From NCBI GenBank assembly GCA_001563335.1, contig LRSL01000086.1, positions 1-64,000 of the forward strand: a DNA stretch of 64,000 nucleotides, given 5' to 3'. The stretch comes from Candidatus Thorarchaeota archaeon SMTZ1-45 (GTDB lineage Archaea; Asgardarchaeota; Thorarchaeia; Thorarchaeales; Thorarchaeaceae). Shown one piece after another: positions 25,054 through 29,136 of this stretch. A model generated the notes under the pieces. The model made no database searches, was not told where the DNA came from, and saw nothing but the letters and a program-made list of their open reading frames with translations. The translations under genes were made by a program, and so were the position numbers. Every line of letters begins with the position of its first letter. The stretch's first letter is position 1.

Positions 25054-26547
25054 ATGTCGTGCCTTTTTTCTTTCAAATGCTCAAGATGTAATCAAACACA
25101 TGACTCTGACTTGTATGCTCCTAGATGCACGAGTTGTGGAGGAGTGTTACGTGTAGAGTATGATATTGAATGTGTAAAAGAAAAACTTGGAAAGAACGGG
25201 TTTGAGAGAAGGACATCAGGAGTATGGAAGTATCATGAGTTATTGCCTGTACTGGACAAGACCAATCTTGTATCTCTTGGGGAGGGTGGGACTTACCTAC
25301 ATAGATGTTATGGTCTAGCTGAAAAACTGGGCTTAGATGAGTTATACCTGAAAGACGAAACAACTAACCCTACTGGTGCGTTCATAGACAGAGGAACTGC
25401 AGTGGAGGTTACTGTAGCAAGACAGAGGGGGTACAATTCAGTCTGCTGTGGGACTACAGGAAATTTGGCAGTTTCACTCGTTGCATATGCTGCAAGAGCA
25501 GGATTGGAAAGTAAGGTGTTCATTGGACAAAAAGGTCATGTTGATTCAGGTAAACTCTACCAGATTCTAGCATATGCAGCTCAGGTTGAAATTGTGAGAG
25601 ATCGAGAAGAAGCTCTATCTCGAGCATGGCAAGAAAGTAAACAGAGTCACTCTGTTGTGCCCAGCAATCCACACTTTCTTGAGGGGGTTAAGACTACAAT
25701 CTTGGAAACATGTGAACAGTTGGACTGGGAAACACCAGATTGGGTGATAGCGCCGATGGGAAACGGTGGACATATCTCAATGATATGGAAAGGACTTGTT
25801 GAACTAAAGGAGCTTGGACTAGTTCCAAAACTGGATGTTAGGTTAGTAGGAGCACAAGCAAGGGGATGTTCACCGATTGTAGAAGCATTCGAAAAAGGTA
25901 GCAAGAAGATAATTCCATCTAGTCATGTTTCAACTGTTGCCATTGACATTGGTGTCAGAGATCCTTCTTGCGGAAACATGGCTCTCGACTCTTTGGAGCA
26001 ATCAAAGGGATTGGCTGTATCCGTAACTGATAGGGAGATTCTCGAAGCGGTAAAAGACTTGGCTCGATTGGAAGGTGTGTTTGCTGAGCCAGCTTCAGCG
26101 ACAACAATAGCAGTGCTGCAAAAACTTGTAAATGAGGGTCGAATTGACAGGGGTGACAGAATTGTCTGTGCTATTACTGGAATGGGGTTAAAATATCCAG
26201 AGATAACACGCACATTCGTAAAAGGTAAGAGTACCTTAGAGTACTTTCTGAGCCACGTGGAGGGGCGTCGTTTTACAACAAAACTTGGTCAAACAAAAGT
26301 ACGAATATTGCAGATTCTTTCAAGAGGAGAGTCTTATGGTTATGCAATCTGGAAATCAATGGTAGATGACTACGGTTTTCGAATCAAAATCCCAAGTATC
26401 TACCAGCATATCTCTGAACTGAAAAATAGTGGGCTTATCGTCCAGACAAGAACCGAGGAAACCTACAGAAAGACTTCCAGAAATTATTATGGTCTGACTG
26501 AGAGAGGGCATCTAACACTTGACCAACTTGAGAAACTATCAGAATAG
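25054..26547 (+). CDS. Threonine-synthase-like PLP-fold protein fused to a C-terminal PadR-like wHTH; PLP-Lys position is Ile
   Basis: Zinc ribbon CSRCNQ..CTSCGG; NPTGAFIDRG (canonical NPTGSFKDRG); GNGGHISMIWKGL; C-terminal VRILQILSRGESYGYAIWKSMVDDYGFRIKIPSIYQHISELKNSGLI...YGLTERGHLTL. Confidence 0.88.
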   Translation: MSCLFSFKCSRCNQTHDSDLYAPRCTSCGGVLRVEYDIECVKEKLGKNGFERRTSGVWKYHELLPVLDKTNLVSLGEGGTYLHRCYGLAEKLGLDELYLKDETTNPTGAFIDRGTAVEVTVARQRGYNSVCCGTTGNLAVSLVAYAARAGLESKVFIGQKGHVDSGKLYQILAYAAQVEIVRDREEALSRAWQESKQSHSVVPSNPHFLEGVKTTILETCEQLDWETPDWVIAPMGNGGHISMIWKGLVELKELGLVPKLDVRLVGAQARGCSPIVEAFEKGSKKIIPSSHVSTVAIDIGVRDPSCGNMALDSLEQSKGLAVSVTDREILEAVKDLARLEGVFAEPASATTIAVLQKLVNEGRIDRGDRIVCAITGMGLKYPEITRTFVKGKSTLEYFLSHVEGRRFTTKLGQTKVRILQILSRGESYGYAIWKSMVDDYGFRIKIPSIYQHISELKNSGLIVQTRTEETYRKTSRNYYGLTERGHLTLDQLEKLSE

Positions 26548-27405: not shown

Positions 27406-27515
27406 AGGTATTCAATTCCCACTATGATAGTCACATTATGTGACTTCGTCCTGTGACCCCTATACGTGGCTTCGGTATATATACTAAATCTGAGCAGTAT
27501 TTCTTGTGAAATATC

Positions 27516-27620
27516 ATGGCTCTAACAACTAACTCACGAAATTCATCGGTAATGGAGAAAACCAAGGCTCATGTCATGTCGACTGATGCCTTGACCCATG
27601 CATACACCTATCGGAGGTAG
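27516..27620 (+). CDS. 34-aa small protein MALTTNSRNSSVMEKTKAHVMSTDALTHAYTYRR
   Basis: ATG-TAG ORF about 30 nt downstream of a TATATATACT box; C-terminal tail shared with the next ORF, with synonymous codon differences. Confidence 0.6.
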   Translation: MALTTNSRNSSVMEKTKAHVMSTDALTHAYTYRR

Positions 27621-27627
27621 ATTCGAG

Positions 27628-27714
27628 ATGGCGTTTGCTAAGAAACAGAACAAGAGAATCTACAAGAAACAAATCTCGACGGATGCCCTTGCCTATTCAT
27701 ATCTCTACAGGTAG
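27628..27714 (+). CDS. 28-aa small protein MAFAKKQNKRIYKKQISTDALAYSYLYR
   Basis: SD GGAGGT overlaps the end of the upstream ORF; tail ISTDALAYSYLYR matches MSTDALTHAYTYRR. Confidence 0.6.
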   Translation: MAFAKKQNKRIYKKQISTDALAYSYLYR

Positions 27715-27723
27715 TTGGTAATT

Positions 27724-27822
27724 ATGATAAGCGTTTCAAAGAAATTCTTCAGTTCATACAAGGATAATGCAAAACGTCGTTGTCACACAAAAAATGAAGT
27801 GCTTATGATGGAAGTAACATGA
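27724..27822 (+). CDS. Candidate 32-aa small ORF MISVSKKFFSSYKDNAKRRCHTKNEVLMMEVT
   Basis: Third co-directional tiny ORF, basic N-terminal half; its 3' end overlaps an inverted repeat. Confidence 0.3.
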   Translation: MISVSKKFFSSYKDNAKRRCHTKNEVLMMEVT

Positions 27823-27832
27823 GCACTTCATG
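27795..27832 (+). terminator. Inverted repeat after the small-ORF cluster
   Basis: TGAAGTGCT...AGCACTTCA followed by TGTTGATTTTATC. Confidence 0.45.
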
Positions 27833-27858: not shown

Positions 27859-28494
27859 CTAATCATCAGATCGTATAATCCATCTGACCAATTCAGCAAT
27901 CATCTGATTTTCATCCATAAATTGTGCTCTATAGTCTGAACGTTTGAATGCAAGTAGGACATTCTGCATTCCGGGATCAAAGCCTATGATGCTAACTGCT
28001 TTTTCAATCACATTTGGTCTAAATGCGATTGATGTTAGTAATAAAGAAACTCCAAAAAGACCAATGAGTAGGACGGGCCAAAAGTCAATCGGACGAGCTC
28101 TTGAAATCCTATCACCAATTAGAAAGACACTAAAAATTGCGAAGGCCATGAGCAGACCATCAACAATCAAACAGAGAGATTGGTATCTGTCAGTGCCATC
28201 ATCAGGATTTGCATGATTCTCGCACACTTGGATTGGCAGAACTTTCATTTCAGATGGTTTAGAGTCACCTCTAAATCGCGTGTAGGGGCTGTAGACATAT
28301 TGCCAAGAGCGTCTAAGATATTGTTTTCCAGTTTTTGCAACCTTCAGACGTACAACCTTGGTGGCCGGTGCGCCGCAAACTGGACATGTTTTAGGAAACC
28401 GTGCTTTTAGAAAATCAACTTTGACAAGTGGTTCATCAAAGTACTCTTTTCTAGGACTCAATCTCTGGGTCTCCATTTTATAGCTCTTAATCAA
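27859..28494 (-). CDS. Membrane protein with N-terminal zinc-finger-like motif
   Basis: CPVCGAPATK, CENHAN, then two hydrophobic helices. Confidence 0.6.
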   Translation of the reverse strand: MIKSYKMETQRLSPRKEYFDEPLVKVDFLKARFPKTCPVCGAPATKVVRLKVAKTGKQYLRRSWQYVYSPYTRFRGDSKPSEMKVLPIQVCENHANPDDGTDRYQSLCLIVDGLLMAFAIFSVFLIGDRISRARPIDFWPVLLIGLFGVSLLLTSIAFRPNVIEKAVSIIGFDPGMQNVLLAFKRSDYRAQFMDENQMIAELVRWIIRSDD

Positions 28495-29136
28495 ATGAGT
28501 AAAGAGTTTATCGAACAGTGCTTTTTATGGAACATCTTTATTTTCAATATCCTACAAATGAAGCTCATGTATTATGGCGAGTGTGTGTGTCTCAGAGCAC
28601 TTGAATTAGAGGACCTCGACGATATTTTGAAGCACTGGAACAACCTAGAGCTTCGTCAATATCTAAGCAGTCAGACCCCAATGTCCAGACAAGCTGAACG
28701 TCAGTGGCTGGAACGCGCGACTACTTTAGATCCTTGGCGAGATGGAGGAATGACTCTTGCTATTGAGGATAAGAAAACCAAAGAGTTTCTAGGGACTGTT
28801 AGTTTATTCACCATTTCCTCACAACACAAAGCAGCAGAGTTTGGAATTGCAATACATAACCCGGAGAATCTTAGTAAAGGCTATGGTACGGATGCAACTC
28901 GTGTTATGCTATGGATAGCTTTCCACATTCTAGGTCTTAATAGCGTTTTTCTCAGAACTCTGGATAGTAATAAACGTGCACAGAAAGCCTATGAGAAAGC
29001 AGGTTTCAAAAATGCAGGAGTGACTAGGCAAGGGGCGTTTGTCAAAGGAACTTTCCACGACGCCATCATAATGGACATCCTCAAGGAAGAGTTTCTCAAG
29101 GTATATCCTCCTGGTACTGAAGTTGGAAAACCCTAA
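28495..29136 (+). CDS. GNAT acetyltransferase (RimJ/RimL type)
   Basis: VCLRALELEDLDDILKHWNNLELRQYLS, LSKGYGTDATRVMLWIAFHILGLNSVFLRTLDSNKRAQKAYEKAGF. Start may be internal. Confidence 0.88.
   Translation: MSKEFIEQCFLWNIFIFNILQMKLMYYGECVCLRALELEDLDDILKHWNNLELRQYLSSQTPMSRQAERQWLERATTLDPWRDGGMTLAIEDKKTKEFLGTVSLFTISSQHKAAEFGIAIHNPENLSKGYGTDATRVMLWIAFHILGLNSVFLRTLDSNKRAQKAYEKAGFKNAGVTRQGAFVKGTFHDAIIMDILKEEFLKVYPPGTEVGKP

Follow-up and report, generated by a model that had tools for sequence, protein, structure and literature searches.

A multi-copy microprotein operon with a common palindromic operator element in Thorarchaeota

Closest described systems

Among haloarchaeal micro-proteins, the one-domain zinc-finger u-proteins of Haloferax volcanii carry two C(P)XCG motifs (PMC6562870, PMC10716476). 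The microproteins described here are encoded in a 64,000-nucleotide stretch of DNA from Candidatus Thorarchaeota archaeon SMTZ1-45, analysed as a whole and referred to below as the window. They resemble the haloarchaeal proteins in being archaeal proteins of under 70 aa with several members per genome, but they do not belong to the C(P)XCG group: cysteine occurs in 3% of the A peptides and 0% of the B peptides, and there is no Pfam or NCBIfam match. Archaeal bactofilins, or halofilins (PF04519; PMC12186497, PMC12364344), are connected to the locus through a bactofilin gene that has the same operator as the microproteins, although the microproteins are not themselves bactofilins and have no sequence in common with them. 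On the promoter side, the likeness is to EarA (PMC5512572) and to the multi-site Lrp-type regulator BarR (PMC4977709), where several half-sites likewise lie directly upstream of BRE/TATA in the position of an activator, but the sequence of the site differs. The GMSC small-protein catalogue (PMC11364881) covers the same general class, that is, uncharacterised prokaryotic small-protein families; as judged from the literature rather than from catalogue entries, a tandem, operator-linked and lineage-restricted regulon was not found described there. Literature searches also found no description of these microproteins.

Asgard archaea have been read mainly through their large eukaryote-like genes. 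Here, proteins of 27-40 aa form a further layer throughout the family: searches of the family libraries gave no match for them, they occupy fixed loci, are probably tightly co-regulated and have their operator in common with a cytoskeletal gene. Annotation that is blind to small ORFs may have overlooked a major regulon.

The three-gene unit and its coding capacity

The preliminary description of this DNA had recognised two consecutive ORFs (34 and 28 aa) with a common tail, a TATATATACT box before the first and a GGAGGT Shine-Dalgarno (SD) sequence inside its last codons, and had taken them for an operon of small peptides whose function is unknown and whose peptide sequence is under selection. 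All of these features are in place (Table 1) and the reading is supported, but it was incomplete: there are three genes, not two, in about eight syntenic loci behind a common operator, and gene C, the palindromic operator, the 3' hairpin and the presence of several units per genome had been overlooked.

Table 1. Positions of the operon features in the window
Feature	Position	Strand	Description
Palindromic operator AGTCACA-TTA-TGTGACT	27429..27445	+	Exact palindrome; conservation starts abruptly here in 53 aligned promoters
Second half-site TGTGACCC	27452..27459	+	Near-invariant column block in 53 promoters
GTGGCTTCG element immediately 5' of TATA (third half-site, BRE position)	27466..27474	+	Near-invariant, 53 promoters
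TATA box TATATATACT	27476..27485	+	53-promoter alignment
Gene A	27516..27620	+	34 aa basic microprotein, MALTTNSRNSSVMEKTKAHVMSTDALTHAYTYRR, tail STDALTHAYTYRR
Gene B	27628..27714	+	28 aa strongly basic microprotein, MAFAKKQNKRIYKKQISTDALAYSYLYR, tail ISTDALAYSYLYR
Gene C	27724..27822	+	32 aa, MISVSKKFFSSYKDNAKRRCHTKNEVLMMEVT; position and tail match ...KAKRRCLSDDEVLMLEAT in relatives
3' hairpin	27794..27831	+	Overlaps gene C tail and stop codon, followed by a T-rich stretch; terminator-like

Walking outward from each family member, together with a search with the third (C) tail, gave a canonical order of operator, TATA, gene A (about 34 aa), gene B (about 30 aa), gene C (about 36 aa) and hairpin, with gaps of 4-7 nt between each stop and the next ATG. 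In the window, the GGAGGT of gene B is contained in the last codons of gene A (TAT CGG AGG TAG), and the last codons of gene B, TAC AGG TAG, occupy the position expected for the SD of gene C. The same holds across operons: gene A ends in CGG AGG TAA/TAG or GTG AGG TGA, so that its final Arg codons double as the SD of B, and gene B typically ends in TAC AGG TAG immediately before C. The microproteins are hydrophilic (mean GRAVY about -0.65), and the A and B peptides have a pI of about 10; for gene A, AlphaFold gives a single low-confidence helix (pLDDT 67, pTM 0.26). Gene C, found in about 45 operons, usually encodes an acidic peptide (median pI 4.9). Variants of the unit have two B-like genes, lack B (L244) or contain additional other small ORFs. 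At one locus (VIII; L037, L040, L047, L055, L070), microproteins ending TLDSLYYxYxRxK, possibly a further paralogue, lie directly upstream of a B-like gene.

The argument that the two tails are preserved as peptide despite synonymous codon differences proves mostly right, since five of the eight residues common to the A and B tails (Thr, Leu, both Tyr and Arg) have different codons, whilst the other three have the same codon (Ser TCG, Asp GAT, Ala GCC). When back-translated, STDALxxxYxYR occurs twice in the 64-kb window, with 0 occurrences expected and 0 in 100 shuffles, and 14 times in 99 whole genomes, all of them in relatives; the reversed pattern has 0 occurrences. Comparison of homologues bears out selection on the peptide. 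When pairs of equal length within each locus are pooled, pN/pS in the proposed frame is 0.58 for A, 0.46 for B and 0.67 for C, against 0.92-1.17 in the two other frames, and third codon positions carry excess differences in the proposed frame only. The dN/dS of the A and B tails is 0.09-0.35 over seven loci, with that of the body higher at nearly all of them, the pairs having been filtered at 50% identity, which biases these values downwards. RNA structure in A and B is no better than in dinucleotide shuffles (z about 0), and the A/B tails are therefore conserved as peptide. Genes A and B thus behave as coding genes under purifying selection.

Gene C requires a different treatment of its two parts. 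Its body evolves as coding sequence (pN/pS 0.54, against 0.92 and 1.35 in the other frames). Its conserved tail was at one stage read as peptide conservation, but RNA pairing accounts for much of it, because the last codons and stop of gene C form a hairpin in nearly every operon. In the window this has a dG of -19.8 (z -5.07), and over 43 sequences 85% of cells are paired, against 29-50% in slid controls, with 38 double-change cells against 2-14. This covarying 3' hairpin looks like a terminator. RNA thus accounts for at least part of the conservation of the EVLALEAT tail, which, since it encodes the hairpin, cannot be used as evidence for peptide selection.

The family is restricted to the Thorarchaeota lineage. 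As a query, gene B alone (P0002) matches 30 of 59 related genomes. With a 37-member tail profile at E ≤ 1, each of the 47 genomes in the family of the source has 1-14 matches, the source genome itself having 11. Had relatives lacked the motif, or carried broken frames, a coding reading would have failed; instead, every family genome has homologues, with intact frames. A phylum-wide profile search at E ≤ 0.01 matched 45 of the 47 family genomes but none of the 181 genomes from other Asgard families, and the named loci from GTDB genomes, found with a closer member set (A3), were Candidatus Thorarchaeota in 46 of 46 cases. Searches of Pfam, NCBIfam, PHROGs, PDB and Rfam produced nothing useful. 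A viral small-protein family was rejected, with no PHROGs family at E ≤ 0.05 (best E 0.26) and no relative on IMG/VR viral contigs.

The operator element and the genes behind it

In most units the palindrome AGTCACAnnnTGTGACT lies upstream of the TATA box. Alignment of 53 such class-1 promoters on TATA reveals no conservation upstream of -48, from which point the order is TAGTCACAnnnTGTGACT, TGTGACCC, GTGGCTYCG, TATATATAC, CTGAGCAGTATTTCTTGTGA and ATG. From archaeal TATA spacing, transcription would start about 6-10 nt before the ATG, giving a near-leaderless message. The pattern GTCACN5GTGAC has one match in the window, the operator itself, with 0.05 expected, and the palindrome is present in 5-8 copies per genome. 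Operator plus TATA is found in 38 of the 47 family genomes, in counts where TATATATA makes some sites count twice, and the reversed pattern has almost no matches; the exact-match operator pattern is missing in the other 9. The class-1 operator matches do not include locus VIII of the source genome (contig C76).

At locus II (e.g. L041, L181) a different palindrome, GGTTTGTnnCACAAACC, takes the place of the class-1 operator and abuts the TATA box, in about one copy per genome. It adjoins a gene for a PadR/HTH_20-like 265-aa protein, which may be its regulator. A second regulon under this class-2 palindrome was considered and rejected, because no genome had more than one site in either orientation, as in the reversed control.

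The operator occurs in two geometries: the long form precedes the microproteins, and the short form is found ahead of two further kinds of gene. One of these is a Thorarchaeota bactofilin gene (PF04519, E 5e-12); the other encodes an acidic multi-TM protein (MKPIDED...EYGSLxSMIAWMAFLxIWLFFFAS; L168, L171, L173, L214) with no Pfam match. Having the same operator element before its promoter, the bactofilin gene is probably in the same regulon as the microproteins. The link would be one of co-regulation through a sequence element, and a general-purpose regulator would give the same pattern. A wHTH protein (HTH_45) encoded beside the Thorarchaeota bactofilin gene was tried as the regulator of the operator and set aside, as it is not beside the bactofilin in another family (f24).

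A few families beyond this one also have the element, at roughly one copy per genome. In f24 it precedes bactofilins and, once, a 32-aa ORF. In a further family (f9) it precedes 29-30 aa peptides ending FACRR/FACRN, which constitute a microprotein family (MxKYNYPEG...YIYxFACRR; L246-L253) apparently unrelated to A/B/C. There are seven copies of it in five genomes, three of them in one genome, a count that leaves out a sixth, weak match inside a 712-aa frame; all seven carry the operator element, exactly or with one mismatch. After the stop lies a conserved GC-rich hairpin region, itself conserved at the sequence level (ACGTGCCC...GGGCACGGG plus a T-run). In another genus of this family (L236-L238), the same operator lies before a different, 46-aa microprotein (MAKIITKNKRSKVPQMQLGERATTGCRNPRPTRNHRQAFAIITSRH).

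Proposed role, alternatives and genomic setting

The locus is read here, with moderate confidence, as one of several copies of a three-cistron microprotein operon that is specific to Thorarchaeota and under a common activator, whose A and B tails bind a common partner and whose products are accessory peptides of the envelope or cytoskeleton. Synteny, the common operator element and the hairpin can be taken as established by the genome comparisons. One putative DNA-binding regulator would recognise AGTCACAnnnTGTGACT and turn on most of the microprotein operons of a genome together, as well as the genes for the bactofilin-type polymer-forming protein and the multi-TM protein. This regulator is most likely an activator, because its sites sit just upstream of BRE/TATA, as for EarA. 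On a signal, several operons would be transcribed at once from strong TATA boxes into short, near-leaderless mRNAs, which the hairpin would end and protect, and translation is likely to be coupled, since each SD after the first lies in, or next to, the stop region of the preceding gene. The output would be bulk quantities of A and B, which are small and basic, vary at the N-terminus and end in a tail under selection, [ST]T[DE]A[LIV]xxxYxYR, together with the usually acidic C.

Variable N-termini beside a more strongly constrained A/B tail make the tail the likely binding part; the A and B tails may act as short helical binding motifs for the common partner, with the peptides as bulk accessory proteins in an envelope or cytoskeleton programme marked by the operator. 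The weakest step is the assignment to envelope or cytoskeleton, to which the putative bactofilin co-regulation and its recurrence in a second Asgard family tentatively point. Similarly speculative is an Asgard-wide extension, in which one regulator acting through GTCACAnnnTGTGAC would drive bulk lineage-specific microproteins together with bactofilin-type filaments, the microproteins being filament or membrane modulators that were invented or replaced in each lineage (A/B/C in Thorarchaeota, FACRR peptides elsewhere). The operator offers an entry point to the regulator, the tails to the partner and the exact ORF coordinates to proteomics.

Several alternatives give the unit a different product. 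The peptides might be secreted signals, bacteriocins or RiPP-like precursors, recognised through a conserved C-terminal segment that follows a variable N-terminus; the several copies per genome show just this division, and the tail has a lower dN/dS than the body at nearly all loci. Such a role is nevertheless improbable: no maturase, protease or dedicated exporter recurs across loci (MFS genes are present at two only), the peptides are hydrophilic, the RR at the end of the A tail doubles as an SD, and clustering over all loci with Pfam identified the neighbours as locus-specific housekeeping genes rather than a precursor cluster. We give about as little credence to a unit that is mainly a regulatory (dual-function) RNA with the peptides as secondary or by-products, for which the covarying hairpin at the transcript end and the conserved post-stop region of the f9 units would speak, but A and B fold like shuffles and evolve as proteins, and Rfam gave no match. 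Pairs or triplets of small ORFs of opposite charge, here basic A and B with acidic C, are also reminiscent of toxin-antitoxin systems or anti-phage small peptides. The units, however, are syntenic and kept in all family genomes instead of being patchy, IMG/VR viral contigs contain no relatives and PHROGs no family at E ≤ 0.05, and the peptides are not hydrophobic like type I toxins, so that this seems very unlikely.

The genomic setting bears on the remaining two. With its coupled, near-leaderless small ORFs and the hairpin and T-run behind them, the unit resembles an attenuator in its anatomy, and leader peptides could control a downstream gene; but the next gene in the window is convergent (27859-28494, minus strand), the next plus-strand ORF begins at 28495, 660 nt past the hairpin, the neighbours are unrelated between loci, and the hairpin sits where the last ORF ends instead of separating a leader from a structural gene, leaving attenuation with only a slight chance of being correct. 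That the units are repetitive or mobile DNA, or chance ORFs, might be suspected because a single genome has several copies whose promoters are alike. This can be virtually dismissed: conservation has a border at the operator and is absent upstream of it, the loci are vertically syntenic, the tail pattern has no matches in shuffles, and the codon-position signal in the frame control refutes it.

The reading as a multi-copy microprotein operon accords with this setting. Neighbour clustering places the units at about eight recurrent syntenic places, which reflects vertical descent and not mobility. The place represented in the window has a superoxide reductase (PF01880) on one side and a zinc-ribbon-like protein and a GNAT protein on the other, an arrangement shared by 28-38 fetched loci, among them a few overlapping copies of one place. 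A place with the operon between 3-hydroxyacyl-CoA-dehydrogenase-like and MFS genes is kept across genera. Elsewhere in the window, positions 25054-26547 (plus strand) encode an enzyme-regulator fusion, in which a threonine-synthase-like PLP enzyme (PF00291) carries a winged helix of the PadR type (PF03551, E 4.9e-13) at its C-terminus.
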